From Actinospica robiniae DSM 44927 (lineage in GTDB: Bacteria > Actinomycetota > Actinomycetes > Streptomycetales > Catenulisporaceae), in the NCBI RefSeq assembly GCF_000504285.1, contig NZ_KI632511.1, forward strand, positions 1,981,372 to 2,045,371: a stretch of 64,000 nt of DNA. The letters run 5' to 3'. Both the position numbers and the translations under genes were made by a program. This document shows positions 6,622 to 30,243 of the stretch, piece after piece; positions within the stretch are counted from its first letter, which is position 1; every line of letters begins with the position of its first letter. The notes below the pieces were generated by a model that saw only the letters and a program-made list of their open reading frames with translations, did no database searches and had not been told where the DNA came from.

Positions 6622-8112
6622 ATGGCAGGTGAGTTGACCGGCCGGATCAGCGGCGTACCCGCCGAGGTCTGGAACGAGGAGATCCTCGCTCCCCAGTTCG
6701 CGTACGAGGCCGAGCATCTGCTCGGACACTACGCGGCGATCGAGCGGGTGCTGCTCCTGGAGTACCGGCGGATGGGGCTGGTGGACGCGGCCGGAGCGGC
6801 CGCGATCGCCGAGCGGCTGGATTCGCTCGATACCGCGGCGGTACGCGCCGATCCGCGGGAGAACATGTCAGACATCTCTTTCGCCATCGAGCGCCACGTC
6901 GCGGCGGGCTCGGCTCGGCCGTTCAGCGCCTGGCACGTGGACCGCAGCCGCAACGACCTGCAGTCCTGCGCGCAGCTGATGGCCGCGCGCGAGCAGGTGG
7001 CCGCGATCGCCGGGGAACTGCTCGCGCTCGCGCACGCCGCCGGCGAGCTGGCCCGGGAGTACGCGGACGTCCCGATGCCCGGGTACACCCACGCCCAGGC
7101 CGCGCAGATCATCACCCCCGGCTTCTACTTCGCGGCGGTGGCGGGCGAGACGCTCGGCTGTGCGCGTCGGCTGCTCGCCGTCTACGACGAGATCGACGCC
7201 TCGCCGCTGGGCGCGGGGACGATGGCGGGGCAGGAGCTGCCCTGGGACCGGGACCGCATGGCGAAGCTGCTCGGCTTCGCCCGGCCGCAGGCCCACGCGC
7301 TGGTCTCGGTCGCCTCCCGCGGCTGGGCCCTGGCCGTCGCGATGGAGCTGTCCAACTTCGCCGTCACCCTCAGCCGCTTCAGCACCGACCTGATGACCTG
7401 GGGCGGCAGCGGATACGGTTTCCTCGAGCTGCCCGACGAGCTGTCCGGGATCTCGGCCGCGATGCCGCAGAAGCGCAACTTCCCCGTGCTCGAGCGGCTG
7501 CGGGGCCGGTGCGCGCACGTCAGCGGGCTCGCCTTCGACCTCGCCAACGGCCAGCGCAACAGCGCCTACGCGAACACGGTCGAGGTGTCCAAGGAGGCCG
7601 GGGCCCGGCTGCACGGCCAGTTCGACGCGATGCGCTCGGTGCTGCGGATCGCGCTGGTGGTCGTGCGCAACCTCTCGTTCCACACCGAGCGCATGCGCGA
7701 GGCCTGCGAAGCGGAGTTCCTCGGCGGATTCACCCTCGCCAACCGCCTCACCCTGGACGAGGGCGTCCCCTGGCGCACCGCCCAGGTGATCGCCGGCCGC
7801 TACATCAAGCGGGCGATCGAGGCGGGGATCGCGCCCGCCGAGCCCGACGGCGCGCTGCTCGCGGCGGTCGCGGCGGAGGCCGGCCACCCGGTGCGGGACG
7901 GGCGGACGCTGCTCGAGGCCACCCTCGGCGTGGCCGAGGGGCTGCGGGCCAAGCGCTCGGCCGGCTCCGCCCACCCGGACGCGGTCCGCACGATGCTCGC
8001 CGACCTGGACGCCGAGGCGGCGGAGCTCGGCAAGGGCTGGGCGCGGCGCGGCCGGGCCGGCCGCGATGCCGCCACTGAAGTCAATGCCCTGCTTTACGAC
8101 GTAGAATCCTGA
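6622..8112 (+). CDS. Argininosuccinate-lyase homologue, probable diaminobutyrate-releasing lyase
   Basis: A 496-residue member of the fumarase/aspartase superfamily, closest in motifs to argininosuccinate lyase: VDRSRNDLQS, MPGYTHAQ, and the signature loop. The loop reads GISAAMPQKRNF where the family normally has GSSxMPxKxNP, so one of the two serines (serine 278) is kept and the other is alanine. These enzymes eliminate fumarate from an N-succinyl group. It lies 19 bases before the PLP/ATP-grasp fusion, and a threonine kinase is in the neighbouring operon. In 2,3-diaminobutyrate pathways of friulimicin- and pacidamycin-type clusters (from memory) a homologue releases the amine from an aspartate adduct. 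That is more likely here than arginine synthesis, but it is inferred from context. Confidence 0.85.
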   Translation: MAGELTGRISGVPAEVWNEEILAPQFAYEAEHLLGHYAAIERVLLLEYRRMGLVDAAGAAAIAERLDSLDTAAVRADPRENMSDISFAIERHVAAGSARPFSAWHVDRSRNDLQSCAQLMAAREQVAAIAGELLALAHAAGELAREYADVPMPGYTHAQAAQIITPGFYFAAVAGETLGCARRLLAVYDEIDASPLGAGTMAGQELPWDRDRMAKLLGFARPQAHALVSVASRGWALAVAMELSNFAVTLSRFSTDLMTWGGSGYGFLELPDELSGISAAMPQKRNFPVLERLRGRCAHVSGLAFDLANGQRNSAYANTVEVSKEAGARLHGQFDAMRSVLRIALVVVRNLSFHTERMREACEAEFLGGFTLANRLTLDEGVPWRTAQVIAGRYIKRAIEAGIAPAEPDGALLAAVAAEAGHPVRDGRTLLEATLGVAEGLRAKRSAGSAHPDAVRTMLADLDAEAAELGKGWARRGRAGRDAATEVNALLYDVES

Positions 8113-8131
8113 CTCTCGAAGGAGCCCGACC

Positions 8132-10369
8132 ATGCGACACTCATCGATCATCGACGCGATCGGCCACACCCCGCTGGTGCGGCTGCGGATCGACGCCCCG
8201 GAAGGCGTGGAGGCGTACGCCAAGCTCGAGATGCTCAACAACTTCGCCATGAAGGACCGGGTCGCCCGCCAGGTGATCGCCGAGGCCCGGCGGACCGGGG
8301 CGCTGGCCGAGGGCGCGCCCATCGTGGAGAGCTCCTCGGGCACCATGGCCCTCGGCCTGGCGCTGGTGGGCACCCATCTCGGCCATCCGGTGCACATCGT
8401 CACCGACCCGCGGATCGACCCGATCACCCTGGCCAAGCTCACCACCCTCGGCTGCGAGGTGCACGTGGTCGAGGCGATGACCGGCCAGGGCTGGCAGAGC
8501 GCCCGGCTGGAGCGGCTGGCCGAGCTGATGGCCGGCCTGCCCGGGGCGTTCTGGCCGCGGCAGTATTCGAACCCGCAGAACCCGGCGGCCTACCGCACCC
8601 TGGCCGACGAGCTGGTGGCCGATCTGGGCGGGCTGGACGTGGTGGTCGGCGCGGTGGGCAGCGGCGGCTCGCTGTGCGGCACCTCGCGGGCGCTGCTGGA
8701 GCGGCTGCCGGAGCTGAAGGTCGTCGGTGTGGACTGCGTCGGCAGCGTGCTCTTCGCCCAGCCGGACGTGCCCTCGCGCAAGCAGAGCGGCCTCGGCAAC
8801 AGCCTGTTCCCGGACAACATCGACTACACGCTCTTCGACGAGGTGCACTGGCTCTCCGACGACGAGGCCTTCGACGCCACCCACCGGCTGGCCCGGGAGC
8901 AGAAGATCTTCGGCGGCAACACTTCGGGCTCGGTCTACCGGATCCTGAGCCACCTCGCGCGCAACGCCGCGCCCGGCACGAAACTGGTCGGCATCATGCC
9001 CGACCGCGGCGACCGCTACGTGGAGAGCGTGTACACGCACCGGCCGGCCGGACCGATCGCGGCCGAGCCGGCCGAGGTCGAGTACGGGACCGCCGTCACG
9101 AGCTGGTCCTTCGCCCGCATCCCGCGCCGGGATCGGCCGGTGCTGGTGTTCGTCGAGTCCAACACCACCGGCACCGGGATGTTGATGCTGCGCACGGCTG
9201 TGCGCCTCGGGGTGGAGCCGGTGCTCTTCGCGAAGGACCGGGAGCGCTACCCGGGCCTGGCCGAGACCGGCTGCCGGGTCGTGGTCTGCGACACCGACGA
9301 CGCCGCCGCGCTGCACGACGTCGTGGCGGAGACGGTGGCCGGACGCACCGTCGCCGGTGTGACCACCACCAGCGAGTTCTACCTCGAACACAGCGCGCGG
9401 CTGGCGGCGCGGCTCGGCGTGCCGGGCAACCCCGTCGACGCGATGGCGGCCTGCCGCAACAAGGCGTTGACCCGCCGGGTGCTCGCGGACGTCGGCATCG
9501 GCCAGCCGCGGTTCTCGGCCGTGAGCGAGCCGTCCGAGGTCGACGCCGCCATCGCCGCGGTCGGCCTGCCTTGCGTGGTGAAGCCGGTCGGTGAGTCGGG
9601 TTCGCACGACGTGCTGTGGTGCCCGGATGCCGAGACCGCCGCCGCGCACGCCGCGAAGGTCCTCGCGGTCACCCGGAACGTGCGCGGCCAGGAGACCGCG
9701 CGCACGGCGCTGGTCGAAGAGTACGTCGCAGGGCCGGAATACAGCGCGGAGATGTTCTGCGTGAACGGCGAGGTCTACTGCGTCGGCGTCACCGAGCGGA
9801 CGCTCAGTGCGCTGCCGCACTTCGTGGAGACCGGCCACCTGTTCCCGGCCGCTCTGGACGAGATCAAGGCCCGGGAGATCTCCGAGGCGGCCGGGCAGGC
9901 GCTCAAGGCGCTCGGCTTCGAGCGCGGCGCGGCGCACGTGGAGCTCAAGACCGCCGACTGCGGCCCGGTCGTGGTGGAGGTCAACGCGCGCCCGGCCGGC
10001 GGGATGATCCCGGAACTGGTCCGCCTGGCCACCGGGATCGACCTGATGGACCAGCAGGTGCGCAGCGCCGCGGGCCTCCCGGTGAGCCTCGCGGCGACCC
10101 GCGCGAAGCGGGCCGGCATCAGGTTTCTGACCGTGCCGGCTCCGGGGCGCCTGCTCCAGGTGACCGGCGTGGAGCGGGCGCGGGCGGTGGCCGGCGTGGA
10201 CCAGGTCACGGTCACCGGCGTCCCCGGGCAGGCGGTGCACGCGGTACGCGACGCATACGACCGACTCGGCTACGTCATCGCGTCCGGAGAGAGCGCCGAG
10301 GAGGTGCGGCGGGCGCTCGACGAGGCCGTCGCGCAGCTGAACGTCGTGGTCGAGGCCGACCTGGGGTAA
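8132..10369 (+). CDS. Cysteine-synthase-like PLP enzyme fused to ATP-grasp ligase
   Basis: A 745-residue two-domain protein. Residues 1 to about 320 are a fold-type II PLP enzyme of the cysteine synthase/SbnA group, with the Schiff-base lysine in AMKDR (lysine 41), a substrate loop ESSSGTMALGLA, and the phosphate-binding GSGGSLCGT. Residues about 335 to 745 are an ATP-grasp ligase, with the CVVKPVGESGSHDV strand and VVVEVNARPAGG metal site. The PLP half should perform beta-replacement on an O-phosphorylated hydroxy-amino acid with an amine donor such as aspartate or glutamate. The ATP-grasp half implies an ATP-dependent amide-type bond whose substrates I cannot name. The ATG follows AAGGAG. 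Together with the lyase upstream and the GHMP kinase it suggests 2,3-diaminobutyrate supply. Confidence 0.88.
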   Translation: MRHSSIIDAIGHTPLVRLRIDAPEGVEAYAKLEMLNNFAMKDRVARQVIAEARRTGALAEGAPIVESSSGTMALGLALVGTHLGHPVHIVTDPRIDPITLAKLTTLGCEVHVVEAMTGQGWQSARLERLAELMAGLPGAFWPRQYSNPQNPAAYRTLADELVADLGGLDVVVGAVGSGGSLCGTSRALLERLPELKVVGVDCVGSVLFAQPDVPSRKQSGLGNSLFPDNIDYTLFDEVHWLSDDEAFDATHRLAREQKIFGGNTSGSVYRILSHLARNAAPGTKLVGIMPDRGDRYVESVYTHRPAGPIAAEPAEVEYGTAVTSWSFARIPRRDRPVLVFVESNTTGTGMLMLRTAVRLGVEPVLFAKDRERYPGLAETGCRVVVCDTDDAAALHDVVAETVAGRTVAGVTTTSEFYLEHSARLAARLGVPGNPVDAMAACRNKALTRRVLADVGIGQPRFSAVSEPSEVDAAIAAVGLPCVVKPVGESGSHDVLWCPDAETAAAHAAKVLAVTRNVRGQETARTALVEEYVAGPEYSAEMFCVNGEVYCVGVTERTLSALPHFVETGHLFPAALDEIKAREISEAAGQALKALGFERGAAHVELKTADCGPVVVEVNARPAGGMIPELVRLATGIDLMDQQVRSAAGLPVSLAATRAKRAGIRFLTVPAPGRLLQVTGVERARAVAGVDQVTVTGVPGQAVHAVRDAYDRLGYVIASGESAEEVRRALDEAVAQLNVVVEADLG

Positions 10370-11032: not shown

Positions 11033-14000
11033 ATGCATGAAGACGATGTGGAGATCGAGGACGTATACCCGCTCTCGGCGCTCCAGGCAGGGCTGCTGTA
11101 TGAGGAGTCGAATGTCGCGCCCGGCGCGGCTCGCCCTTATCTGGTGCAGCAGGTCGATCGTTTCACCGGAGCCATCGATGTCGGCATCCTGATAGCGGTC
11201 TACGAGTCCCTGGTGGACCGGCACCCGGCGCTGCGCACGGGTTTCGAGTGGGCCGGGGACGAGCCGCGGCAGCTGGTGCGGCGCGCGGCGCGGCTCCCGG
11301 TGACCCGTCTCGACTGGTCGGCGATCGCACCCGGGCGGCGCGAGGCCGAACTCGCCGCGCTCATCGAGCAGGACCGGCGCACCCCCTTCGACCCGGCGTG
11401 CCCGCCGCTGGCCCGGCTCACCGTCGTCAGCCTGTCCGGCACCGAGCTGCTCACCCTCTTCACCGTCCATCACATCCTCGTGGACGATCAGAGCCTGACC
11501 GTGCTCGACGCGGAGTTCGACGAGCTCTACCGCGCCGCGGTCTCGGACCGCGAGGCCGCGCTGCCGCCGGCTCCGTACTTCGCCGACTTCATCCAGTGGC
11601 AAGCCGATCGGCGGCGCGAGCTGACCGACGAGGACGCCCGGGCCGCTGCGGCGCGGTTCGCCGACCTCGCGCAGCTCGGCCCGCTCACGCTCGGCTCCGC
11701 GCGTTCGGCCGCCGCGTTCGAGCGGGTCACGCTGCGGATGACGGCCGAGGAAGAGGCCTCGCTCACCGGCTTCGCCCGCCGGGCCCGGGTCTCGATGAGT
11801 TCGCTGCTGCACGGTGCCTGGGCGTTGGTGCTCAGTGGCCTGACCGGCGGTGACGAGGCCGTCTTCGGTTTCACCGCGACCCAGCGGCCCAAGGCCGTTC
11901 CCGGCGTGGACCGCCTGGTCGGCGCCTGCATCGCGACTCTGCCGGTGCGTCTCGCGGTGGACCGCGCGGCCAAGGCCGGGGATTGGCTGCGCGGGGTGCA
12001 GCGGGAACTGGTGGATGCCTGGAGCGACGAGGCGCTGCCCTTCCTGGACGGCCGGCTGCTCGGTCGCCGCGGCGAGGACGCCGGGGCGCGCATCGAGTCG
12101 ATCTTCGTGGTGGAGAACGGCACGGCCGTCATCCACGACCTGCCCGGCGTCGAGCGCACCCGCCTCGACTCGATCGGCTGGACCGGCTATCCCGTCGTCG
12201 TCGACGTCGGTTTCATCGACGGCCTGCACGTGGACGTCACGGTGGACGGGTCACGCGCCGACGCCGCGGCCGCCCGCCGCCTTGCCGAGCGCTTCCGGCA
12301 CGTGCTTCACGCCCTGGCCGCGGACCGCGATGCCCTGGTGGGCACGGTCGACCCGCTGCTGCCGGACGAGCGCGAGCAACTGCTCCGCTGGGGGACCGGC
12401 GCCGCTCTGGCCGCCGACGCGAAAGGAGTCGCCGAGCGCTTCGAGCAGCAGGCCGCCCGCACCCCGGACGCGATCGCGGTGGAGTTCGAGGGGCGCAGTG
12501 TCTCCTACCGCCGGCTCGACCAACGGGCGAACCGCCTGGCGCGTACCCTTCGCGAGCACGGGGTGGGTGCTGAGGTATTCGTCGCCTTGGCGATGGAGCG
12601 CTCCGTCGAGCTCCTCGTGGCCTTCCTCGCGACGCTCAAGGCCGGCGGCGCCTACGTGCCGATCCCGGCGGCGTACCCGCTCGCGCTGGCCCGGGCAGTG
12701 CTGGCCGACCTCCAGCCGGCGGTGCTGTTGACCGACGCCGTCCATGTGCGCGGCGAGGTGGTGCCGGGGCTCGCGGACACCGGTCTACCGGTGATCGTGG
12801 TCGACGACGCCGACGCCGAGTCACCCGGCGACGACTCGGGCCTGGGCCTCGACTGCCCGCCGGATCAACTCGCCTACGTGATGTTCACCTCGGGGTCCAC
12901 CGGAACCCCCAAGGGCGTGGCGATCACTCACGGGAACATCATCACCCTGACGGACGACGCGTGCTGGCGCAACGGCAACCACGACCGGGTCCTGATGCAC
13001 TCGCCGCACTCCTTCGACGCCGCCACCTACGAGATGTGGGTCCCGCTGCTGCACGGCGGCACGGTCGTGCTGATGCCGCCCGGCGCGGTGGACACCGACA
13101 GCCTCACCCGTTGCCTGGAGACCGCGGACGCCACCGGCATGTACCTGACCAAGGCCATGTTCGATGTCTTGGTCGCCGAGTCGCCGCGCACCCTCTCGCT
13201 GGTGCGCGAGGTGTGGACCGGCGGCGAGGAGGCCTCGCTGCGCTCGATGAACACCGTCGGGCAGCTGTGCCCCGACCTGTCAGTCCTGCACGTCTGGGGG
13301 CCCACCGAGACCACCGTGTTCGCGACCTACCGCCTGGTGGGCGCCGGCGGCTACGAGGGTTCGGTCTCGATCGGCGCCCCGATGGACGACACCCGCGTCT
13401 ACGTGCTCGACGGCGGCCTGCGGCTGCTGCCGCCCGGTACTGTCGGCGATCTCTACGTGGCCGGGCCGCGACTGGCCCGCGGCTACGTCAACCGTCCCGC
13501 CGTGACCGCGCAGGCCTTCCTGCCCGACCCGTTCGGGGAGCCCGGCTCGCGGATGTACCGCACCGGCGATCTGGCCCGCTGGAACGCAGAGGGCGAACTC
13601 GAGTTCGCCGGGCGAGCCGACGGCCAGGTGAAGATCCGCGGGTTCCGGATCGAACTGGGCGAGATCGAGACCGTACTCGCGCAGGCTCCGGGCGTGAGCC
13701 AGGCCGTGGCCGTGGTGCGCGAGGACCGCGCCGGGGACAAGCGGCTCGTCGCCTACGTGGTGCCGGCGGATCCGCATCCGGTCACGGGCGGCTCCTCCGA
13801 GAGCGCCGTCGATCTCGAGGCGCTGCGCGGATTCCTGGCGACCCGGCTGCCCGGCTACATGCTGCCCTCGGCGATCGTGGTGCTGCCCGGACTTCCGCTC
13901 ACCGCACACCGCAAGGTCGATCGCAGGGCCCTGCCGGCGCCGTCGGCCGCACAGTCACAGAGTTCGCACATCGAGCCGAGCACGCCGGCCGAGGCCGAAC

Positions 14001-17000
14001 TGTGCCGCCTGTTCGCCGACGTGCTCGGCATCGCGCGGATCGGTATCGACGAGGACTTCTTCGCCATGGGCGGGCACTCGCTGCTCGCCATGCAGCTGAC
14101 CAACCGCATCCGCTCGGCCTTCCAGACCGAGATCAGCATCCGCGACCTGTTCCTCGGCGCGACGGTCGAGCAGATGGCCGCCCGGCTGCAGACCGCGTCG
14201 GCCGCCGGGGCGCGCCTGAAGCCCGCGGTGCGGCCGGATGTGCTGCCGCTCTCCCCCGCCCAGCGCCGGCTGCGCTTCCTGCATGCCTTCGAGGGCCCGA
14301 GCGCCACCTACAACGTGCCGCTCGCCCTCGAGTTGACCGGCACACTCGACACGCAGGCGCTGGAAGCCGCGGTCAACGACGTGGTCGCCCGGCACGAGAT
14401 CCTGCGCACCGTCTACCCCGACTACCTCGGCGAGCCGCGTCAGCTCATCCTCGATCCCGAGCACGTCCACATCGCCCTGGAGATCGACGACGTCCCGGCC
14501 GCGCGGGTCGAGGAGTGGATCAATCGCCAGATCGGGCACTGCTTCGAGCTGACCGTCGAGCCGCCGATCAAGGCGCTGCTGCTGCGCTCCGAGGCGGACG
14601 CGGACCCGGACGCGCGGACGGCCACGCTGCTCCTGCTCACGCATCACATCGCCACCGACGGCTGGTCGATGGGCCCGCTGATCGCGGATCTGGGCACCGC
14701 GTACAACGCGCGCCTGCGAGATCAGAATCCTGATTGGTCCGCGCTGCCCGTGCAGTACGCCGACTTCACCCTCTGGCAGGCCGGACGCGTCGAGGACCAG
14801 CTGGAGTTCTGGCAGCGGGAGCTGGCCGGCCTGCCCGAGGAGATCGCCCTCCCGCTGGACCGGCCGCGCCCGGCCCAACGCGGCAACGACGGCGTGACGC
14901 AGCTGTTCGGCACCCGCCCCGAGGTGCACGACGCGCTTCAGGACCTGGCCCGCGCCAACCAGGCCAGCCTGCTGATGGTGCTGCAGGCGGCGATCGCGGC
15001 CCTGCTGCACCGGCACGGCGCGGGCGACGACATCCCGGTCGGCACCGTCGTGGCCGGACGCGACGACGAGGGCCTCGAGGATCTCATCGGCTTCTTCGTC
15101 AACACCGTCGTGCTGCGCACCGACACCAGCGGCAACCCCACCTTCCGGGAACTGCTCGGCCGGGTGCGCGAGGCCGACCTGCGCGCCTTCGCCCACCAGG
15201 ACGCCCCCTTCGACCGGCTGGTCGAGCAGCTGGCGCCGACCCGCACGCCGGGCCGCCATCCGCTCTTCCAAGTGGCCTTCGCCCTCGACACCGATCAGGA
15301 CCTGCGGCCGGAGCTCGACGGTCTCACCGCGCGCACGCTCGCGATCGCGCCGACCACGGCGAAGTTCGACCTGCACTTCACCTTCCGGCTCAGCCACGCC
15401 GCCGACGGCACGCCGTCCGGTCTCTCGGGTGAACTCACCTACGCCACCGACGTCTTCGACGCGGCCACGGTGCAGGGCCTGATCCAGCGTCTCGACCTGC
15501 TGCTCGCCTCGGTCGCGGCCGATCCCGACGAACGCATCGACGACATCGAGGTGCTCGACGCGGCCGAGCTCAGCCTGCTGACGTCAGGCCTGTGCGCCAC
15601 GCCGGCGCCCGAGGACACCGGGACCATCCTGGACCTGTTCGGCTACGTCGTCGCCGAGGACCCGGACTCGATCGCGGTCGCGGACGGCACCGTGGAACTG
15701 AGCTACGGCGAGCTCGACCGGCTCGCCGGCCGCTTCGCCCGGCGCCTGGCGGACTCCGGCGTCGGCGCGGGCACCGCGGTCGGCGTGTGCGTGCCGCGCT
15801 CGGCGGCGGTGGCCGTGGCCGTGCTCGGCATCTGGAAGGCCGGCGCGGTCTACGTCCCGATCGACGCGGAGGCCCCGGAGGAGCGCTCCCGCTACCTGAT
15901 CACCGACTCCGGCGCGCAGGTGCTGGTGGCGACGGCGCGCACCGCGGACCAGGCGAGCCGCTTCGGCCTGCCGGTGCTCACGCTCACCGAACTCGAGGAT
16001 CCGGCGGACGGAGCGGCGGACCCGGCGGCGCCTCGGCCGCCGCATCCGGCCGAGCTCGCCTACATCATCTACACCTCCGGCTCCACCGGACGTCCCAAGG
16101 GCGTGGCCATCGAACACCGGAGCCTGGGCAACCTCGCCTACGCGGTGCGCCGCTGGTCCGGCCTGGACCGGCACGACCGGGTGCTGCAGTACGCCTCCTT
16201 CACCTTCGACGCCTCGATCTGGGAGTTCCTGCTCGCCTGGGGCGCCGGCGCGGTGCTGCGCATCGCCACCGAGCACGAGCGCGGCGGCGACGAGCTCTCC
16301 CGCGTCCTGGCGGACGAGCGGATCAGCTTCAGTACCCTGACGCCCTCGGTCGCGGCGCTCATCGGCGGCCCGGACGATCTGCCTGATCTCCACACCCTGA
16401 TGCTGTGCGGCGAGGCGGTGCCGCCGGTGCTGGCCGACCGCTGGGCGGTGCCCGGACGCGTGCTGATCAACGGCTACGGCCCCACCGAGACCACGATCGC
16501 GGCAGGCCTGGCCGAGCTGCACGCCGGGGAGCCGATCACCATCGGCCCGCCGCCCGCGGGCGTGCGCGTCTACGTCCTCGGCGACAACCTGCGGCCCATG
16601 CCGCCCGGCGGCGTCGGCGAGATCTACATCGGCGGCGCCTCCACCGCGCGCGGCTACGTCGGGCGCCCGGCCCTGACCGCGTCCCGCTTCGTCGCCGACC
16701 CGTACACGAGCCACCCCGGCACCCGGATGTACCGCTCCGGCGACCTCGGCCGGGTCGACCGGGATGGCGCGCTCAGCTTCGCCGGCCGCGTCGACGACCA
16801 GGTCAAGATCCGCGGCGTGCGGATCGAGCCCGGCGAGATCGAGGCGGCGCTGGCCGAGCATCCGGCGATCGCACAGCCCTTCGTCGCCGTGCGCGAGGAC
16901 CTCCCGGGGGACAAGCGCCTGGTCGCCTACCTCGTGCCGGCCCTGCCCCGCGCGGCGGCCGACGGCCCCGTACTCGACCTGGCCGACGTGCGCGAGTTCC

Positions 17001-20000: not shown

Positions 20001-21907
20001 GCGAGATCGAGGCGGCCCTGGGTCTGCACCCCGCGGTCGGCCGGCCCTTCGTCATGCTGCGCGAGGACCGGCCGGGCGACAAGCGCATCGTCGCCTACGC
20101 GGTCCCCGCCGAGCCGGACGCCGGCCTTGACCTGGCGGACCTGCGCGAGTTCCTCGCCGTGCGGCTGCCCGGCTACATGATGCCCTCGGCGTTCGTGGTG
20201 CTGCCGGAGCTGCCGCTGACCCCGCATCAGAAGATCGACCACAGGGCGCTGCCCGCGCCGGCCGCCGAAGCGCCCCGGACGCACCGCAGCCCTCGTACTC
20301 CGGTCGAAGAAGTGGTCTGCGGCCTGTTCGCGGAGACGCTGGGGCTCGCGCAGGTCGGCGTGGACCAGGACTTCTTCGCCCTCGGCGGCCACTCGCTGCT
20401 GGCTCTGCGCCTGACCAACCGGATCCGCGCCGCGTTCGCCGGCGAGCTGAGCATCAGGGACCTGTTCGAAGCGCCGACCGTCGAGGGCATCGCCAAGCGC
20501 CTGGAAGCCGCCGCCGCGAGGCAGGAGATCGAACTCGGCGTCCTGCCGCCGGTGGCGCGGGCCGAGACGCGGCCCGAGGTCCTTCCGCTCTCCTCGGCGC
20601 AGCTGCGGCTGTGGATCCTCAACCGCTTCGAGGGTCCGAGCGCCACCTACAACGTGCCGTTCGCGGTGCGGCTGACCGGCCCGCTCGACCCGCGGGCCCT
20701 GCAGGCGGCGCTGAACGACCTCGTCGCCCGGCACGAGACGCTGCGCACGCTCTACCCGGACCTGTTCGGCGAGCCGCGGCAGCTGATCCTGGCCCCCGAG
20801 GACGCGCTGATCGACCTCGAGGACTGCGAGGTCGCGGCCGAGCAGGTCGAGGCCAGGATCGAGCAGGAGATCGCGCACCGCTTCACCCTGGCCTCCGAGC
20901 AGCCAGTCAAGGCCCTGCTGCTGCGTTCGGCGCCGCAGGACGCGACGCTGCTCCTGCTGATCCACCACATCGCCACCGACGGCTGGTCCACCGGGCCGCT
21001 GACCCGCGACCTGAGCACCGCGTACAACGCGCGGCTGCTCGGGCGGGCGCCGGACTGGCCGGCCCTGCCCCTCCAGTACGCGGACTTCGCCCTGTGGCAG
21101 CGCGACGCCGCGGCCGAGGGACTCGAGCATCAGCTCGAGTTCTGGGCCGGGGAACTGGCCGGGCTGCCCGAGGAGATCCCGCTGCCGTTGGACCGGCCCC
21201 GCCCGGCCCAACGCGACGGACGCGGCGCCGTGGTCGGCTTCGAGCTGCGACCCGAACTCGGCGCCGCGCTGCGGGAGCTGGCCGGGCAGAACCAGGCGAC
21301 GCTGCTGATGGTGCTGCACGCCGGCGTGGCCGCGCTGCTCGACCAGTGCGGCGCCGGCTCCGACATCCCGCTCGGCACGCCGGTCACGGGACGCGGCGAC
21401 GAGGCTCTGGAAGACCTCGTCGGGTTCTTCGTCAACACCCTGGTGCTGCGCGCCGACACCAGTGGCGACCCCGGCTTCCGGGAGCTGCTCGGCCGTGTCC
21501 GCGAAGCCGACCTGCGTGCCTTCGCGCACCAGGAGGCCCCGTTCGACCAGCTGGTCGAGCGGCTGGCGCCGACCCGCACGGCGCACCGCAATCCGCTCTT
21601 CCAGGTCGCCTTCTCCCTCGTCCCCGACCTCGAGCAGGAGGACCCGCTGCGCTTCCAGGGCCTTGAGTCCCGAGCCCTGCCGATCGCGCCGAACACAGCG
21701 AAGTTCGATCTCACCGTCACCTTCCGGCCCGGCGGCGCGGCGGACGACGCGCTCTACGGCGAGATCGACTACTGCACCGACATCTTCGACCCGGCCACGG
21801 TGCACGGGCTGGCCCGACGGCTCGTCGGCCTGCTCGAGGCGGCCGCGGCACAACCCGAAACCCCGATCGGGCGCCTCGGCGCCCTGGTGAACCAGGAAGG
21901 CGAGTAA
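11033..21907 (+). CDS. NRPS-1: C-A-T-C-A-T-C-A-T-C
   Basis: About 3624 residues, three full modules plus a C-terminal condensation domain. C1 (about 10-430) has VYPLSALQ and HHILVDD. A1 (about 460-975), T1 (GGHSL near 1010), C2 (1066-1500, HHIATDGWS), A2 (about 1525-2020), T2 (near 2063), C3 (2120-2550), A3 (about 2575-3075), T3 (near 3115), C4 (about 3180-3624). No epimerase, methyltransferase or TE is present. Manual pocket readings: A1 DAYYWGVVFK, A2 DAWTMCGIAK, A3 DAYFWGVVYK; I do not assign substrates. The ATG at 11033 follows GGGAGA. C4 has no A-T on the same protein and must act with NRPS-2, encoded two genes on. C1 could accept from PKS-2 of the other operon. Confidence 0.96.
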
Positions 21908-21909
21908 TC

Positions 21910-22134
21910 ATGCCCAGTCCCTTCGAGAACCAGACCAAGCAGTTCAACGTCCTGATCAACGCCGAGGACCAGCACTCGCTCTGGCCGCAGGACTATGCCG
22001 TGCCGGCCGGCTGGGAGCCCGTCTCAAGCGGCACCCTCGCCGAGTGCACCGCCTACGTGGACGCGCACTGGACCGACATGCGCCCGCGCTCGCTCAAGCT
22101 GGCCCAGGCCGCAGCGAACGGGAGCCGTCGGTGA
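21910..22134 (+). CDS. MbtH-like protein
   Basis: A 74-residue MbtH-family chaperone. The [10 protein letters not shown] segment and the C-terminal WTDMRP are the family hallmarks, and the length is standard. These proteins bind and activate NRPS adenylation domains. It begins 2 bases after the NRPS-1 stop and its stop overlaps the GTG start of NRPS-2 (GTGA), so it is translationally embedded between the C and A halves of one module. A second copy heads the minus-strand operon at 53910-54131. Confidence 0.97.
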
Positions 22135-24110
22135 GCCTGACGACCACGCAGACCGTCCGCGAGGACCCGGACCTGGACGGGTACCGCCGCGAGTGGGCGG
22201 ACTCGGTCACCCCGGTCCCGGACGCGACCCTGCCGCGCCTGCTGGATCTGCGCATCGCGCAGACCCCGGACGCCGTCGCGGTGGAGTCCGGGGAGCAGAC
22301 GCTCAGCTACGCGCAGCTCGGTGCGCACGTCGACCGGCTGGCCCGCCGGCTGCTCGACGCGGGCGTCGCCCCCGGCGACCCGGTCGCGGTGCTGCTGCCG
22401 CGCTCGACGCACCTGGTGGTCGCGCTGCTGGCGATCGCCCGCTGCGGAGCCGTGTACGTCCCGCTCGACGCCCGCGACCCGCTCGCCCGGATGCGGGGCG
22501 TGCTGGCGAACGCGGGGTGCGAACACCTGGTCGTGGACCACGCGACGCAGGACCATGAGGTCGCCGCCGGCCACAAGCCGGTCCGGGCCGACCTCGAGGG
22601 GTCCGCAACGCCGGGCGGATCAGCGGCCGAACACGTTCCGGATCTGACACAGGGCCCTGACTCGCTCGTCTACGTCATCCACACCTCCGGGTCCACCGGA
22701 GCGCCCAAGGGCGTCGCGGTCAGCCACCGCAACGTGGCCGCGTTCGCCGCCGACCGGATCTGGCGCAACGGCAACCACGAGCGGGTGCTGCTGCACTCGC
22801 CGCACGCCTTCGACGCCAACACCTACGAGCTCTGGGTGCCGCTGCTCGGCGGCGGCACGGTGGTGCTCGCCCCGGACCGGCTGGACGTTCCGCTGATGCG
22901 GAAGCTGGCGGGTACCGGCCGGATCACGGCGGCCTTCCTGACCATCGGCCTGTTCAACGCCCTGGCCGCGGCCGACCCGACCTGCTTCCGCGGGCTGCGC
23001 GAGGTGTGGACGGGCGGCGACGTGGTCTCCCCGGAAGCTCTGGCCAAGGTGCGCGACGCCAACCCGGGCATCACCGTGTACGGGGTCTACGGCCCCACCG
23101 AGACCACCACGTACGCCACCTGCTACCGGGTCGGCGCGCACCTCGATCCGGCGCAGAGCGTCCCGATCGGCAAGCCGATGGACAACACCCGCGGCTACGT
23201 GCTCGACGAGCGCCTGGAACTGGTCGCTCCGGGCGAGGCGGGCGAACTGTTCCTGGCCGGCGCGGGTGTGGCCCGCGGCTATCTCAACCAGCCGGGCCTG
23301 ACCGCGCAGCGCTTCGTCGCAGACCCCTTCGGGGCGCCGGGCGAGCGCATGTACGCGACCGGCGACCTGGTCCGGCGGGAGGCGGACGGCAACCTCCGCT
23401 TCGTCGGACGGGCCGACGGCCAGGTGAAGATCAACGGCTTCCGGATCGAGGTCGGCGAGATCGAGGCGGCGCTGGTCGGGCACCCGGCCGTGCGCGAGGC
23501 CGTCGCGATCGCGTCCAAGACCGCGGACGGCGGCGGCCGGATCCACGCCTACGTGGTGACGGCGCCGTCCACGGCGCTCGACAGTGAACTGATACGTGAG
23601 CACCTGTCCGCGCGGCTGCCCGGCTACATGGTCCCGGACGAGTACTCCTTCCTGCCGGAACTGCCGCTGACGCCGAACGGCAAGGTCGATCGCAGACGAC
23701 TCGCGGCCACCCCGCCGCCCGTGCGGCAGCCGGCTCCGGTCGGGCCGGTCGCGACCGGCCCGACCAGCGTGGCCGAGCCCCGGCCGTCCCTCGACGAGAC
23801 CGAGGCGAAGGTCGCCGCGCTGTGGAGCCTGGTGCTCGGCGTGGAGCAGATCGGGCTCGACGACAACTTCTTCGAGTGCGGCGGCACCTCGCTCAAGCTG
23901 ATCGGCCTGCATGCGCGGCTGTGCGCCGAGTTCGGCGTGGAGCTGCCGATCCAGCGCCTGTTCGAGATATCGACCATCCGGGCCATCGCCCGCCACCTCG
24001 CGCCCGACACGGCCTCGGCGAACTCGGCCGCGGCCGAGCGGCGCGCCGACGTGGACGAGAGGGCCGCGGCCCGCCGCGAGCAGATCCGGCGCAGGGCGGA
24101 ATGGAGATGA
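22131..24110 (+). CDS. NRPS-2: A-T didomain
   Basis: About 659 residues, an adenylation domain (about 30-535) and a thiolation domain ([13 protein letters not shown] near residue 578) with no condensation domain. It completes the module begun by the C-terminal condensation domain of NRPS-1. My pocket reading is DAYFWGVTYK, close to A1 and A3 of NRPS-1, and the core stretch [19 protein letters not shown] is shared with them. So related residues may be used three times. The GTG at 22131 overlaps the MbtH stop and follows GGGAG. The tail after the T domain is rich in arginine and glutamate and could be a docking helix towards PKS-1, whose ATG overlaps this stop. Confidence 0.95.
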
Positions 24111-27100
24111 GCATGGATACCGACGGCAGGATCGCCGTGACCGGCATGGCCGTACGGCTGCCCGGCGCGGCGGACCTGGCCCGCTACTGGAGGCTGCTGC
24201 AGGCCGGCGCGGAGGGCATCACCCGGCACGGCGAGGCCGAGCTGCTCGCCGCGGGCTACGACGCGCAGACCATCCGGAGCAGCGAGTTCGTCCCGGCCGG
24301 CGGCGCGCTGCCGGCGGCGCGCGCGTTCGACTGGTCCTACTTCGGCTACAGCCGGACCGACGCCGCCCTGATCGACCCGCAGCAGCGCGTCTTCCTGCAA
24401 TGCGCGGCCGAGGCCCTGGACGACGCCGGCATCGACCCGACCCGCTTCGCCGGCTGGATCGGCGTATACGGGGGCAGCGACAGTCCCGAGGACGGGCTCG
24501 ACGACCTGATCGACCCGCTGCTGCGGGCCATCGGACGCAACCAGGACTTCCTGGCCACGCGGGTCGCCTACAAGCTCGGGCTGCGCGGCCCGGCGTTCAC
24601 CGTGCAGACGGCGTGTTCGACCTCGCTGACCGCGGTGCACCTGGCCGTGCAGAGCCTGCTCTCCTACGAGACGGACGCGGCGCTGGCCGGCGGGGTCGGC
24701 CTGGCCTCCGCGGGGAGGATGGGCTACACGTACGTGGAGGGCGGCAGTCTCTCCCCGGACGGGCACTGCCGCTCGTTCGACGCCCGCGCCCTCGGCACGG
24801 TGCCCAGCGAGGGCGTCGGGATGGTGGTGCTGCGGCGGCTGGAGGACGCGCTGCGCGACGGCGACCGCATCGCCGCCGTCATCCTCGGGTCGGCCGTCAA
24901 CAACGACGCCGGGGACAAGATCGGGTTCACCGCCCCCTCGGTCTCCGGGCAGCGCGAGGCGATCCTGCTGGCGCAGAAGGTGAGCGGCGTCGACCCGGCG
25001 GACCTCGGCTACATCGAAGCCCACGGCACCGCCACCCCGATGGGCGACCCGATCGAGGTGCAGGCGCTGACCGACGCGTTCCGCCGCTCCACCGACGCCA
25101 CCGGCTACTGCGGGCTCGGCTCGGTCAAGAGCAACATCGGCCACACCGGGGCCGCGGCGGGCGTCGCCGGGCTGATCAAGACGGTGCTGATGCTCGAGCA
25201 CCGGGAACTGGTGCCCTCGCTGCACTTCACCGAGCCGAACCCGCGGCTGCAGCTCGAGGACTCGCCGTTCCGGGTGACGACCAGGCGGACGCCCTGGCCC
25301 GAGCGGGGCACGCCGATGGCGGCGGTCAGCGCCTTCGGTCTCGGCGGCACCAACGCGCACGTGATCCTGCAGGCGCCCCCTTCGCGCGACCGCCCGGCCG
25401 GGCGCCGCACCGCGCGCGTGCTCGGCCTGTCCGCGATGACCGGCACCAGCCTCGACCGGATGCGCGGGAACCTCGCCGACCATCTCGAGGAGCACGGCGA
25501 GACAGAGCTCGGCGACGCGACGCAGACCCTGGCCCGCCGCCGCCAGTACGAGCACCGGGTCGCGGTGGTCGCCGCGGAGCCGGGTGAGGCCGCCGAGGCG
25601 CTGCGCGTCGCGGCGCCGTCCCCGGGCAAGCGCGCGCTCGGCAAGGTGGCGTTCCTCTTCCCCGGCCACGGGGTCCTGGACCACGCCGCGGGGGCCGCCG
25701 CCTACCGGCTACTGCCGACCTTCCGGACCTGCTTCGACGAGATGGCCGACGCCTTTCAGGCCGGCCCCGGCGTCGACCTGGCCCCGGTCGTGGTGCCGGG
25801 GGCCGGCGACGCGGAGTGGTTCTCGCCCCCGGCGCACCAGCACGCGGGCCTGCTGGCCCTGGGCTACGCGCTGGCCAAGCAGCTGATCGAGTGGCGCGTG
25901 TGCCCAGCGGGCATGATCGGCAACAGTATCGGCGAGTGCGTCGCCGCCACCGTGGCCGGGCTCTGGACGCCCGCGGAGGCCGCGGCCGTGGTGCATACCC
26001 GGGCCGTGGCGGCGCAGAACACGAAGCCGGGCCGGATGATCGCGGTCAAGGCTCCGGTGGAGGAGGTCCTCCGGCGTATCGCCGGGTTCGACGGGGTGGG
26101 CGTCGCGGTGGCCGGACCGGGCACCGCGGTCATCTCAGGGATCGAAGCGGCCATGGACGCGCTCACGCTCACCGACGCGCTGGACGGCCTCGACCTCACC
26201 GTGCTCGATGCCCCGGCGGCCGGCCATTCCGCCGCGATGGAGCCCGCGGCGCGGGAACTGCGCGCGGCGCTCGCGCGGGTGACCACCCGGGAGCCGGGGC
26301 TGCCCTTCGTCTCCAACCTGACCGGGCAGTGGGCCCGCCCGGAGGCCGTGCTCGGCGCCGACTACTGGGCGGACCAGCTGTGCCGCACGGTACAGCTGGA
26401 GGCCGGTATCGCGACCCTGATCGATGAGGGCTGCGACACCTTCATCGAGCTCGGCCCCGGCACGTCGATGTGCGGATCGCTGCGCCGGCACCGGGACTGG
26501 GATCCGGAGCGCTTCGTGCTGCCGATGCTCGGCCGGGCCGCCGAGGACCGCGACCGCAGCCTGCTGCGGGCGATCGGCGCCCTGTGGGAGCGCGGCGCCG
26601 AGATCGACCTGGCCGCGGTGACCGGCGACAGTCGGGCACCGGTGTGCTCGCTGCCTCCGTACGCCTTCGACGCACAGGACCCGCGAGCGGACTGGGTCTT
26701 GGCCGCGCCGGCCGAGAAATCGGCGGATTCCGGTGCACCGCACCAGGACGACGTGGCCGGGCTGCCGACCCTGGAGCTCCTGTGGCGCCAGGCGCTCGGC
26801 GTCTCCTCGGTCCGCGCGGAGGACGATTTCTTCGCCCTCGGCGGGGAGTCGCTCATGGCGGTCAACCTCGTCAACCAGATCCGCAGGCACTGGGGCGTGC
26901 GGGTGACCGCCGCCGAGTTCCTCAAGAGCCCGACCTTCGCCACCCTGGTCCGGCTGGCCGGCCCGGCCGCGGCGCAGGCGCGCACCCGCGCGGAGGCGGC
27001 CACCTCGGCTGCGTCGACCGGTCTGGTCACCTTGCGCGAGGGCACCGGGCGACCGGTGTTCTTCGCCGCCGACGTCCTCGGCACCTCCTCCAGCTATCTG

Positions 27101-27769
27101 GTGCTGGCCGACCTGCTCGAGACGGACCGCCCGGTCTGCGGGCTCGAACAGACCGAGCGCCCGGGCCGTTTCCCGCGACTCGAGCGGCTCGCTGCCGAAC
27201 AGGTCGCGCTCGCCCGACAGGCCCAGCCCGAAGGCCCGTACACCCTGGCCGGCTGGTCCTTCGGAGCCGTACTCGCGCATGAGATGGCCCGTCAGCTGAT
27301 CGAGGCCGGACAGAGCGTGGACCTGCTCGTCTGCCTCGACGGACAGGTCCGGGGACGGCGCGGCCGGCCGCTCGGCGCCAGCCCCGCGGTGCTGCGCGAC
27401 GCCGTCACCCTGCAGGTGGGCGTGGCACTCGGCACCGGGCCGCTCGGCGCCCGCATCCGCAGACTGCCCGAGCTGCGCCGCCGCTTCCTGGCCAACGCCG
27501 GCGCCCTGCTGCGCTACCGGCCGAAGCCGGCGGCCTGCCGCACTGTGCTGTTCAAGGCGGAACCGGGCGACGCCGGGCGCAGCGCGGCGATCGAACGCGG
27601 CCTCGCCTCGCTCTACCGGGAGGTCCGGGTCGAGCCGGTGGCCGGCGACCACTGGTCCATGCTCGCCGAACCGCACGCCCGCGGCCTCGCCGCCCGGATC
27701 AGTGCCCTGCTTCCGCATGACACCCCGCGCCCCGCCGCGGCCACCGCCGCGTCCACGACAGGAGATTGA
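24107..27769 (+). CDS. PKS-1: KS-AT-T-TE terminal module
   Basis: About 1220 residues, a type I polyketide module with thioesterase. KS (about 5-425) has cysteine 170 in TACSTSL, histidine 306 in [12 protein letters not shown] and histidine 346 in SNIGH. AT (about 510-800) has GNSIGE, serine 607, with asparagine where GHSxGE normally has histidine; the specificity segment reads AAGHS rather than HAFHS or YASHS. T has serine 915 in GGESL. TE (about 980-1210) has serine 1051 in GWSFG and histidine 1182 in GDHWSML. There is no ketoreductase, so a beta-keto product is released unless reduced in trans. AAGH resembles XAGH motifs of larger extenders, which fits the CCR/KAS III/dehydrogenase genes downstream. 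The start overlaps the NRPS-2 stop (ATGA); ATG 24113 is an alternative with its own GGAG. Confidence 0.95.
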
Positions 27770-27770
27770 C

Positions 27771-28343
27771 ATGACCGTCACCACCGAGATCCGCGAGATC
27801 ACCGACCTCGAGGCGCTGGCCGCGACCGCGCACCCGATCCGCCGACGCCTGCTCGACTTCCTCGACGTCGAAGGCGAGATGACCGCCACGGCGATGGCCG
27901 AGAGCTCCGGGCAGTCGGTGCGCACCATCGAGCGGCACCTGCACCTGCTCGAGGAGAGCCGGCTGGTCGAGCAGAGCGCCGCCGACGAGGACGGGGAGCG
28001 GCCGTGGCGCCGGTCCGCGCCCGGGATGCGCACGCAGACCAACGATCTGGCCGACGACGCCGTCACCCGCGCGGTGATCTTCGCCATGCTCTGCGTCACC
28101 CGGGAGCGCCACGCCGGCTTCATGCGGGAGTGGACCGAGGCCCGGGAAACCTTCGGCCCGGACTGGAAGGTCAGCGGCTTCGTCGCGGACTGCTGGCTGC
28201 GGCTGAGCCCGGCCGAGCTGGTGCAGGTGCGCGGCGAGTTCGCCGACATCTTCGAGCGCTGGTCCACCCGGGACGTGCCGGACGACGGCGTGGACCGCCG
28301 CCCGGTGACCTTCTTCGCCCAGGCCGTGCGGGCCCAGCCGTGA
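27771..28343 (+). CDS. Winged-helix (ArsR-like) transcriptional regulator
   Basis: A 190-residue protein with an N-terminal winged helix-turn-helix of the ArsR-like type (about residues 12-75): AHPIRRRLLDFL, then ATAMAESSGQSVRTIERHLHLL. The helical C-terminal part resembles the partner region seen in many actinobacterial ArsR-like regulators. There is no CxC metal-binding motif. The ATG follows AGGAG, one base after the PKS-1 stop. It sits in the middle of the biosynthetic operon and probably tunes it or the exporter; the target is unknown. Confidence 0.85.
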   Translation: MTVTTEIREITDLEALAATAHPIRRRLLDFLDVEGEMTATAMAESSGQSVRTIERHLHLLEESRLVEQSAADEDGERPWRRSAPGMRTQTNDLADDAVTRAVIFAMLCVTRERHAGFMREWTEARETFGPDWKVSGFVADCWLRLSPAELVQVRGEFADIFERWSTRDVPDDGVDRRPVTFFAQAVRAQP

Positions 28344-29338
28344 CCCGGCCGCCCGCCGACGACACCCGCCCCTCCGTCCGCCCCCTTCACGAGATTGCCG
28401 GTGATCCCATGCGCGACCTCATCTCCCTGGCCGACCTGACTCCGACCGAACTCGACACCCTGGTCCGGCGCGCGGTGCGCTTCGGCGGCCCGGAGCCGGT
28501 GGCCAAAACACTGGCCGGCCGCCGCGTCGCCACCTTCTTCAGCAAGACCTCCACCCGCACCCGCACCTCGTTCTGGGCCGGGGCCGTGCGGCTCGGCGCC
28601 GACGTGATCACCTACGGCCCGAACGAGCTGCAGCTGAGCACCGGAGAAACCCTGGAGGACACCGCGCGCGTCCTCGGCGAATACGTGGACGCACTGGTCA
28701 TCCGCACCAACGGCGACGTCGGCGAGATGCGCCGGCTGGCCTCCTGCGACAACCTCGCCGTCGTCAATGCCCTGAGCTCCGACGAGCACCCCACCCAGGC
28801 GATCGCCGACCTGGCCACGCTTCTCGAGCACTTCGGCTCGCTCGACGGTCTGCACGTGCTGTGCGTCGGCGAGGGCAACAGCAGCGCCGTCGCGCTCGCC
28901 CTGGCCGCCGCCCGCACCCCCGGCTTCCGGGTCACCCTCGTGTGCCCGCCCGGCTACGGCGTGGACAAGCAGATCCTGGACAAGGTCGCCGAGATCTCCG
29001 AGGGCCGGGCACTGGTCGAGCAGCACGAGAGCTTCGACGAGGTGCGCCGCCCGGTGGACGCCGTCTACACCAGCCGCTGGCAGACCATGGGCGTGTCGAA
29101 GCCGGACCCCAACTGGCTCTGGGCCTTCCGCGACTACCGGGTGAGCACCGGGCTGCTCGAGCGCTTCAGCGGGCCGGAGACCGTCTTCCTGCACGACCTG
29201 CCCGCCGTCCGCGGCCAGGAGGTCGACGACGAGGTGCTCGACGGCCCGCGCAGCGTGGCCTGGCGGCAGGCCCACCACAAGATGACCGCCGCCATGGCCG
29301 TCCTGGAGTGGTGCGTCACCGGCGGGGAGCAGGAGTGA
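28340..29338 (+). CDS. Ornithine/aspartate carbamoyltransferase homologue, probable tailoring enzyme
   Basis: About 332 residues from the GTG that overlaps the upstream stop; a start at ATG 28409 (309 residues) matches the family length better. The carbamoyl-phosphate site STRTRTSF (serine near residue 71) and HPTQ are intact. The OTC ornithine loop HCLP reads HDLP here, replacing the key cysteine with aspartate, and the usual SMG loop is altered (SRWQTMG). This points to a substrate other than ornithine. In viomycin-type pathways a homologue carbamoylates a diaminopropionate-derived amine. Here 2,3-diaminobutyrate, free or in the peptide, is the attractive acceptor (inference). It is translationally coupled on both sides, to the regulator and to the GHMP kinase. 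Confidence 0.85.
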   Translation: MTRPPADDTRPSVRPLHEIAGDPMRDLISLADLTPTELDTLVRRAVRFGGPEPVAKTLAGRRVATFFSKTSTRTRTSFWAGAVRLGADVITYGPNELQLSTGETLEDTARVLGEYVDALVIRTNGDVGEMRRLASCDNLAVVNALSSDEHPTQAIADLATLLEHFGSLDGLHVLCVGEGNSSAVALALAAARTPGFRVTLVCPPGYGVDKQILDKVAEISEGRALVEQHESFDEVRRPVDAVYTSRWQTMGVSKPDPNWLWAFRDYRVSTGLLERFSGPETVFLHDLPAVRGQEVDDEVLDGPRSVAWRQAHHKMTAAMAVLEWCVTGGEQE

Positions 29339-30243
29339 ACCGCACCCGGACCACGGCGCGGCGCACCGGCACCGCGACCTCGCCCATCCACCACGGCGAA
29401 ATCCTGCAGGGCGCGTTCCGGGTGCACGGCCGGATCCAGCGCGGGCTGGTGACCATCCCGTGCGAGCTGTACTGGTCCACCGCCGCGTTCACCCCGGAGC
29501 CCGGCGGCGAGGTCACCGTGCTGCCGGAGTGGCGCGGCAAGGCCCGCCAGGCCGCCGAACTGACCCTGCGTGAGCTCGAGCCGCTCGTCGGCGAGGGGCT
29601 CGGCGGCACGCTGAGCGTCTGCAGCGACGTGCCGCTCGGGCGCGGCTTCGGCTCCTCCACCAGCGACGTGCTCGCCGCGATCCGGGCGGTCGCCGACGCC
29701 TTCGACGTCCGGTTGCCGCGGGAGACCGTGGCCCGGCTCGCGGTGGCGGCGGAGACCGCGTCCGACTCGCTGATGTTCGACCAGAGCGCGGTGCTCTTCG
29801 CCCACCGCGAGGGCGCGCTCATCGAGGACTTCGGCGCGCGGCTGCCGGCCATGCACGTGCTGGGCTTCGGCACCGGGCTGGCGGTCGACACCGTCGGCTT
29901 CCTGCCCGCCCGCTACACCGAGCGGGAACTCGACTGCTTCGACGAGCTGCGCGTCAGGCTGCGCACGGCCGTCCGCTCCGGAGACGTCGCGCGGATCGGC
30001 GAGATCGCCACCGTCAGCACCCGCATCAACCAGAGCCATCTGCCGATCCCGCGGCTCGAGCAGGTGTGTGAGGCGGCCGCCGAGGCCGGCGCCGCCGGCG
30101 TGCACACCGCGCACAGCGGGGACATCGCCGGGCTGCTCTTCGACCTGCGCGACCCCGACCTGTCCTACCGGCTCAAGCTCGCCGGGAAGCTGCTACGCGA
30201 CATCGACTACGAGGAGCAGTGGGGCTTCGACACCGAGCCCTGA
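29335..30243 (+). CDS. GHMP kinase, PduX-like L-threonine kinase
   Basis: A 302-residue GHMP-family kinase. The N-terminal HHGEILQGAF resembles the GELLQG start of PduX, the L-threonine kinase of cobalamin synthesis. The ATP loop is PLGRGFGSSTSD (from about residue 100), and ETASDSLMFDQ resembles the PduX segment EPTDSTLF. The reaction would be ATP-dependent phosphorylation of threonine to O-phosphothreonine. Its place in a natural product operon, with a cysteine-synthase-like enzyme and an argininosuccinate-lyase homologue in the cluster, fits activation of threonine for beta-replacement to 2,3-diaminobutyrate rather than cobalamin synthesis. The GTG at 29335 overlaps the preceding stop and follows GGGGAGCAG. 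Confidence 0.85.
   Translation: MNRTRTTARRTGTATSPIHHGEILQGAFRVHGRIQRGLVTIPCELYWSTAAFTPEPGGEVTVLPEWRGKARQAAELTLRELEPLVGEGLGGTLSVCSDVPLGRGFGSSTSDVLAAIRAVADAFDVRLPRETVARLAVAAETASDSLMFDQSAVLFAHREGALIEDFGARLPAMHVLGFGTGLAVDTVGFLPARYTERELDCFDELRVRLRTAVRSGDVARIGEIATVSTRINQSHLPIPRLEQVCEAAAEAGAAGVHTAHSGDIAGLLFDLRDPDLSYRLKLAGKLLRDIDYEEQWGFDTEP

Follow-up and report, generated by a model that had tools for sequence, protein, structure and literature searches.

A split, chimeric gene module proposed to supply a 2,3-diamino acid to a carbamoyltransferase in an Actinospica robiniae biosynthetic cluster

In the viomycin, capreomycin, and zwittermicin A systems, SbnA and SbnB are paired with a 2,3-diaminopropionate transcarbamylase (DPTCase): an SbnA-like enzyme feeds a carbamoyltransferase with the motif HDLP, giving a beta-ureido amino acid for a nonribosomal peptide synthetase (NRPS). 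The 2,4-diaminobutyrate transcarbamylase (DBTCase) of padanamide biosynthesis likewise has HDLP and, within an NRPS cluster, carbamoylates a short diamino acid. Here, we analyzed a 64,000-nucleotide stretch of the Actinospica robiniae DSM 44927 genome (contig NZ_KI632511.1, positions 1,981,372 to 2,045,371, forward strand; hereafter, the window), in which a carbamoyltransferase with HDLP lies in an NRPS/polyketide synthase (PKS) cluster together with genes for a kinase, a pyridoxal phosphate (PLP) enzyme fused to an ATP-grasp ligase, and a lyase (Table 1). Compared with the SbnA/SbnB and DPTCase systems, the window pathway does without SbnB, and it has a dedicated kinase, the ATP-grasp ligase, and a putatively fumarate-releasing lyase. 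Its carbamoyltransferase has SRWQTMG at the acceptor site, whereas the DPTCase systems have RWQTTG and the padanamide DBTCase, whose partner enzymes also differ, has RWQSMG.

The 2,3-diaminobutyrate gene sets of pacidamycin, mureidomycin, and friulimicin, which may resemble the window set, have a proposed threonine origin in common with it; the window version is set apart in being split, chimeric, and joined to a carbamoyltransferase. 2,3-Diaminobutyrate is the reported product of gene sets of this type (PMC4572928, PMC10714638), and lyase and PLP enzyme genes have been reported in a related lipopeptide cluster (PMC12471526). EDDS lyase of Chelativorans sp. BNC1 (PDB 6g3d-6g3i) belongs to the same superfamily as the window lyase and adds fumarate to, or releases it from, N-(2-aminoalkyl)aspartates, including toxin A; however, its aligned identity to the window lyase is approximately 22% by structure, and it originates outside biosynthetic clusters of this type. 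ATP-grasp/lyase fusions make up the PRK02186 (NF002563) family, and their halves are homologous to the window ATP-grasp domain and lyase; in the window, by contrast, the fusion partner of the ATP-grasp domain is the PLP enzyme, and both proteins score below the PRK02186 cutoff.

An original prediction, made from the DNA letters, had placed the kinase, the PLP enzyme, and the lyase in one pathway, running from threonine through O-phosphothreonine and an aspartate adduct to 2,3-diaminobutyrate and fumarate. Domain searches recovered all three genes at the predicted coordinates within the cluster, and comparison with other loci (labeled L plus a number) accounts for the roughly 20 kb between them, for the window is a chimera of two complementary operon pieces. 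In L120, the genes run in the order condensation (C) domain, MbtH, adenylation-thiolation (A-T), ketosynthase (KS), ArsR, carbamoyltransferase, kinase, PLP enzyme, ATP-grasp/lyase fusion, and MFS transporter; L119 covers only the part from carbamoyltransferase to MFS, in the same order. Both are genomes of the same family as A. robiniae. The window repeats the L120 series minus the PLP enzyme and the ATP-grasp/lyase fusion, leaving 162 bp between kinase and MFS transporter. A lyase and a PLP/ATP-grasp fusion of a second arrangement, type I, lie 18 kb upstream of the carbamoyltransferase, and there the usual middle gene, the kinase, is missing, with 19 bp from the stop of one gene to the start of the next.

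Phylogenetic trees show the same division. From the window, the lyase and both domains of the PLP/ATP-grasp fusion group with type I, in a subclade with L003, L004, L039, L040, and L079 (support 0.99 to 1.0), and the kinase groups with L119 and L120 (0.95) inside type III (1.0). We detected no second such kinase, fusion protein, or non-ArgH lyase in the A. robiniae genome. The split would stem from the loss of the middle genes from a type III operon (carbamoyltransferase-kinase-PLP-ATP-grasp/lyase-MFS) and of the kinase from a type I set, so that each broken operon supplies what the other lacks. This complementarity is the strongest argument that the three proteins serve one distributed pathway, as had been predicted.

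The pieces belong to a recurrent module. Among 392 genomes of the order, we found approximately 25 close homologues of the lyase, at 52 to 70% identity, plus more distant ones. The tetrad of kinase, PLP enzyme, ATP-grasp domain, and lyase recurs in actinobacteria and proteobacteria with varying orders and fusions, and because almost all related loci that we examined have homologues of the four side by side, the grouping is not due to chance. We labeled neighbors by BLAST against the window proteins together with a crude gene caller based on GC frame, so that errors in exact starts and in small genes are possible in these neighborhoods. In type I (lyase-kinase-PLP/ATP-grasp), the kinase and PLP/ATP-grasp genes adjoin the lyase in 28 of 29 loci, the exception being L041, which has the kinase and no PLP/ATP-grasp gene within its 20-kb slice. 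Type II (PLP-lyase-ATP-grasp-NRPS-kinase; L063-L068) is complete in 5 of 7 loci. Type III (kinase-PLP-ATP-grasp-lyase) occurs in Streptomyces and on plasmids of Sulfuriferula and Azospirillum, and in Sinorhizobium a PLP enzyme is followed by an ATP-grasp/lyase fusion. Most type I loci fuse the ATP-grasp domain to the PLP enzyme; in L119, L120, and L078, it is fused to the lyase instead.

Several of these loci have settings of their own. In approximately 15 Streptomyces genomes (L108/L110 and relatives), a common NRPS cluster is bounded on one side by a carbamoyltransferase, with the kinase-PLP-ATP-grasp-lyase module approximately 25 kb away; it also has glutamate mutase and an AsnA-like gene. 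On the Mesorhizobium plasmid pMLb (L076, 6929-10266), a kinase and a PLP enzyme, with neither ATP-grasp nor lyase, lie near an acyl-homoserine-lactone synthase gene and form a partial module on a conjugative plasmid. In L050 (3995-4747) and L057 (15003-15746), the type I module is adjoined by other genes and no NRPS. Those in L050 encode an AzlC-type exporter, a methyltransferase, and a tRNA_SAD (ThrRS/AlaRS editing) protein, and L057 has genes of the same sizes; the product there is perhaps a free toxic threonine or serine analogue with self-protection by tRNA editing.

The carbamoyltransferase ties the module to a class of product. It keeps the carbamoyl-phosphate motifs SxRTR (as STRTR, residues 48 to 52) and HPxQ (as HPTQ, 127 to 130), and, in place of the DxxxSMG and HCLP of ornithine enzymes, it has SRWQTMG (222 to 228) and HDLP (262 to 265). 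According to two reviews, 2,3-diaminopropionate and 2,4-diaminobutyrate transcarbamylases are recognized by HDLP together with an RWQ loop (PMC4581275, PMC6022934), which we took as (S/T)RWQ(T/S)(T/M)G; the reviews conflict over which loop variant marks which acceptor. On both the carbamoyl-phosphate and the acceptor side, the motifs are of the diamino-acid (DPTCase/DBTCase) type, and the enzyme probably turns the pathway product into a ureido amino acid. Its score, its motifs, and a separate genomic argF rule out housekeeping ArgF. The argH and argF of this genome lie in an arginine cluster near 7.82 Mb; therefore, the window lyase and carbamoyltransferase are dedicated genes of the NRPS/PKS cluster.

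Related carbamoyltransferases have exchanged partners. In the sister clade (RWQTTG in the members read), SbnB lies within 40 kb in at least 30 of 60 cases, a lower bound with many contigs broken, and the module kinase in 0 of 60. The window clade has the module kinase nearby in 13 of 13 scorable cases, that is, those with carbamoyltransferase and kinase on one contig (five further cases are split over contigs), and SbnB among the matches listed nearby in 0 of 18. These are raw counts at a single fixed distance, and the exclusivity is complete. Those sister-clade neighbors that we tested are true SbnA and SbnB by NCBIfam curated cutoffs. Read most simply, this swap means that the carbamoyltransferase receives a 2,3-diamino acid from the module instead of from SbnA/SbnB. 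Both routes appear to coexist in A. robiniae, because a second NRPS cluster (L104 and L136, 3.62-3.65 Mb) has a sister carbamoyltransferase (54%) with SbnA/SbnB; the sole SbnB match in the genome at E <= 1e-60 is at 3.65 Mb, adjoining that other carbamoyltransferase.

The lyase (496 amino acids) was correctly described as an argininosuccinate-lyase homologue: it contains Pfam Lyase_1 (E 1.3e-28), the T-H pair, and the catalytic Ser/Lys/Asn loop of the superfamily, with R108-D112, T156, S278, K284, and N286 invariant and H157 nearly so among 19 homologues. Housekeeping ArgH is ruled out by score (210.2 bits against the TIGR00838 cutoff of 279.5), by replacement of the ArgH motif DLQEDKEP with EVSKEAG, and by the separate argH copy. 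In a structure search, the predicted lyase scored alike with EDDS lyase and ArgH (Z about 32-34); the predicted structures for this study were built from four-sequence alignments (mean pLDDT 76.9 and 69.3) and confirm folds only.

The label cysteine-synthase-like given to the fusion protein (745 amino acids) holds for residues 1 to ~305, which are PALP/SbnA-like, and misses residues ~335 to 745, an ATP-grasp L-amino-acid-ligase region. The PLP half matches PF00291 (E 8e-50) and TIGR03945 (E 5e-69) and has the PLP-lysine motif MKDR. Its 232.7 bits against the curated SbnA cutoff of 349.95 (TIGR03945) mark it as a relative of SbnA and not a family member, and the nearest solved structure is SbnA (PDB 5d84/5d87). 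The ATP-grasp half contains Pfam ATP-grasp_4 and LAL_C2, matches PRK02186 (E 8e-98), and has the ATP- and metal-binding motifs of an L-amino-acid ligase (VESNTTGTG, VVKP, and EVNARPAGG, kept among module homologues), by which it appears catalytically intact. Against the PRK02186 cutoff of 625, which applies to a single fusion, the two window proteins separately score 328.7 and 183.3 bits; the L120 fusion is a true member (722 bits). Because the ATP-grasp domain is fused to or adjoins the others in most loci and conserves these motifs, we regard it as a working partner.

The kinase, labeled PduX-like in the original prediction, belongs to the GHMP superfamily by PF00288, and its predicted structure also has the GHMP fold. 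Mevalonate and homoserine kinases rank highest in a fold search of PDB; PduX is not in the PDB match lists, which excludes nothing. The match to ThrB is weak. The kinase start overlaps the end of the carbamoyltransferase gene by 4 bp.

From these gene identities, motifs, co-location, phylogeny, and chimerism, we infer the chemical steps, the threonine substrate, and the final product. The GHMP kinase would phosphorylate the beta-hydroxyl of L-threonine, the SbnA-like half would replace the phosphate with the amino group of L-aspartate to give an adduct, and the lyase would eliminate fumarate from this adduct, leaving 2,3-diaminobutyrate. The carbamoyltransferase would then use carbamoyl phosphate to modify the beta-amine, and the resulting 3-ureido-2-aminobutyrate would go to the adjacent NRPS/PKS. 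For the ATP-grasp half, our best guess is that it carries out an ATP-dependent ligation, with either a pathway intermediate or the product as substrate. AMA synthase, which joins aspartate to activated serine, is only a lead. As cited in PMC10792612, AMA synthase is a biocatalytic route to aspergillomarasmine A. The same paper reports that EDDS lyase joins 2,3-diaminopropionate and fumarate into toxin A with over 99% conversion (PMC10792612), and PDB 6g3i, from its title, was solved with N-(2-aminoethyl)aspartate; because EDDS lyase runs the reverse of the proposed lyase step on the serine-derived homologue, that step is chemically sound.

A 2,3-diamino acid is probably what the module makes. 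The carbamoyltransferase signature, the partner swap, the kept active-site residues of the lyase, and the EDDS lyase precedent support such a product, most likely with release of fumarate, and to this extent the predicted kinase/PLP/lyase scheme appears broadly right, minus the ATP-grasp and carbamoyltransferase activities that it omitted. With threonine as substrate and carbamoylation included, 3-ureido-2-aminobutyrate is the best single product, which we favor somewhat over all other outcomes combined. Several points weigh against this proposal. The ATP-grasp domain is present almost always though the scheme needs none, meaning that a step is missing or wrong. Threonine and serine are not separated by any sequence test. 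With excess fumarate, EDDS lyase drives near-complete adduct formation (PMC10792612), so that cleavage by the window lyase must be pulled forward. Finally, the code DIWQxT(A/C)DD, common to tetrad-adjoining A domains of unrelated clusters, is absent from the window A domains, and the codes single out no product-loading A domain. The first A domain of the minus-strand NRPS is nearest to A domains of clusters with carbamoyltransferase and tetrad in Streptomyces and is a weak candidate loader of the ureido amino acid. We read A-domain codes by means of a GrsA core sequence verified against the known GrsA signature; open-access literature gave nothing usable on the code strings and the pathway.

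The alternative that survives best is a serine route, in which O-phosphoserine and aspartate would give a toxin A-like adduct, then 2,3-diaminopropionate and beta-ureidoalanine, by analogy with SbnA/SbnB acting ahead of a carbamoyltransferase of the viomycin/zwittermicin type. The sister carbamoyltransferases do adjoin SbnA/SbnB, EDDS lyase acts on exactly the diaminopropionate adduct, and the PLP half is nearest to SbnA. However, O-phosphoserine is already made by primary metabolism; therefore, a dedicated kinase would be unneeded for serine and makes most sense for threonine. In addition, SRWQTMG differs from the RWQTTG of the SbnB-linked clade, and module neighbors point to threonine: an aldolase homologue lies downstream in several type I loci (GntG family annotation in L080; the label threonine aldolase comes from this one annotated neighbor and 60-62% homologues), and the kinase-PLP pair of Mesorhizobium lies next to a threonine synthase. 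These neighbors are hints, not tests. Threonine is the likely substrate, and the serine route is unlikely, at perhaps one chance in a handful.

Two further readings are far less probable. The ATP-grasp domain and lyase could form an amidation pair, joining a carboxylate to aspartate and then releasing fumarate in the manner of PurC/PurB, with a different role for the PLP enzyme. They are fused in one lineage, and the superfamily frees fumarate from N-succinyl compounds; however, fusions of the ATP-grasp domain with the PLP enzyme are more frequent, a carboxylate must be free for loading onto an NRPS, and the exchange of carbamoyltransferase partners between this module and SbnA/SbnB marks the module as a supplier of a diamino acid. 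We give this reading little credence, and marginally less to a homoserine kinase whose pathway would end in padanamide-type carbamoylation of 2,4-diaminobutyrate. In its favor, homoserine kinases belong to the GHMP group, the RWQSMG reported for the DBTCase has MG in common with SRWQTMG, and the threonine synthase of Mesorhizobium would fit as well, but cysteine-synthase/SbnA-type enzymes catalyze beta- and not gamma-replacement, the ThrB match is poor, and 2,4-diaminobutyrate normally comes from an aminotransferase. Resistant ornithine carbamoyltransferases (OTCases) occur in some toxin clusters, but a self-resistance copy with no pathway role is highly improbable here, as replacement of the ornithine-binding motifs by the diamino-acid signature rules out a resistant OTCase and the gene is tied to the kinase in every scorable case.

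The threonine route with carbamoylation, which we prefer, would lead to a residue that we know of in no natural product. Tentatively, and at less than even odds, the window may represent a five-activity route with a third acceptor class (SRWQTMG) among diamino-acid carbamoyltransferases, SbnB-free synthesis, a chemically new and obligatory ATP-grasp step, and two broken, complementary operons of separate ancestry rebuilt into one. The pairing of related carbamoyltransferases with either SbnA/SbnB or this module is a natural swap experiment that links a widespread, poorly characterized module to 2,3-diamino-acid supply and makes its product and its puzzling ATP-grasp step directly testable. From it, one would expect a family of Streptomyces peptides to contain ureido amino acids, and the window is a clear example of two half-operons reassembled into one pathway.

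Table 1. Features of the window, with coordinates counted from its first nucleotide
Feature	Coordinates	Strand	Basis
SARP/BTAD-NB-ARC-TPR regulator	2972..6487	+	56% to L120
Argininosuccinate-lyase-superfamily C-N lyase, type I lineage	6622..8112	+	Pfam Lyase_1, motifs, tree
SbnA/cysteine-synthase-like PLP domain, N-terminal half of fusion protein	8132..9046	+	PF00291, TIGR03945
ATP-grasp L-amino-acid-ligase domain, C-terminal half of fusion protein (gene 8132-10369)	9134..10366	+	ATP-grasp_4, LAL_C2, PRK02186
NRPS C-A-T-C-A-T-C-A-T-C	11033..21907	+	A codes DAYYWGVVF, DAWTMCGIA, DAYFWGVVY
NRPS A-T	22131..24110	+	Code DAYFWGVTY; 55% to L120
PKS KS-AT-T-TE	24101..27769	+	KS 70% to L120
ArsR-type HTH regulator, head of ancestral carbamoyltransferase-kinase operon	27771..28343	+	42% homologue, same place in L120
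Carbamoyltransferase, diamino-acid type	28409..29338	+	STRTR, HPTQ, SRWQTMG, HDLP
GHMP kinase, type A (HHGEILQ, SSTSDV)	29335..30243	+	PF00288, fold search, tree
Gap of 162 bp, where sister clusters hold PLP enzyme and ATP-grasp/lyase fusion genes	30244..30405	+	Comparison with L119/L120
MFS transporter, end of ancestral operon	30406..31743	+	60-62% to L119/L120
NRPS A-T-C-A-T	48744..53900	-	First A domain code DVQYMGGIL

Beyond the MFS transporter, consecutive genes for crotonyl-CoA carboxylase/reductase, KAS III, and 3-hydroxybutyryl-CoA dehydrogenase (31778-35003) suggest an alkylmalonyl-type extender unit for the PKS modules of the cluster. A long imperfect inverted repeat (35263-36526; arm pieces of 77 to 166 nt, 84 to 91% complementary) lies between the two convergent cluster halves; two open reading frames in this region had no match in Pfam, and an Rfam search of it found nothing. 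Two secreted-looking proteins, encoded at 54410-56815 (minus strand) and 59994-61655 (plus strand), have in common an 829-nt inverted duplication (91%) of 189-nt repeats, and their unshared parts look, by eye, lysozyme-type and peptidase/amidase-type.

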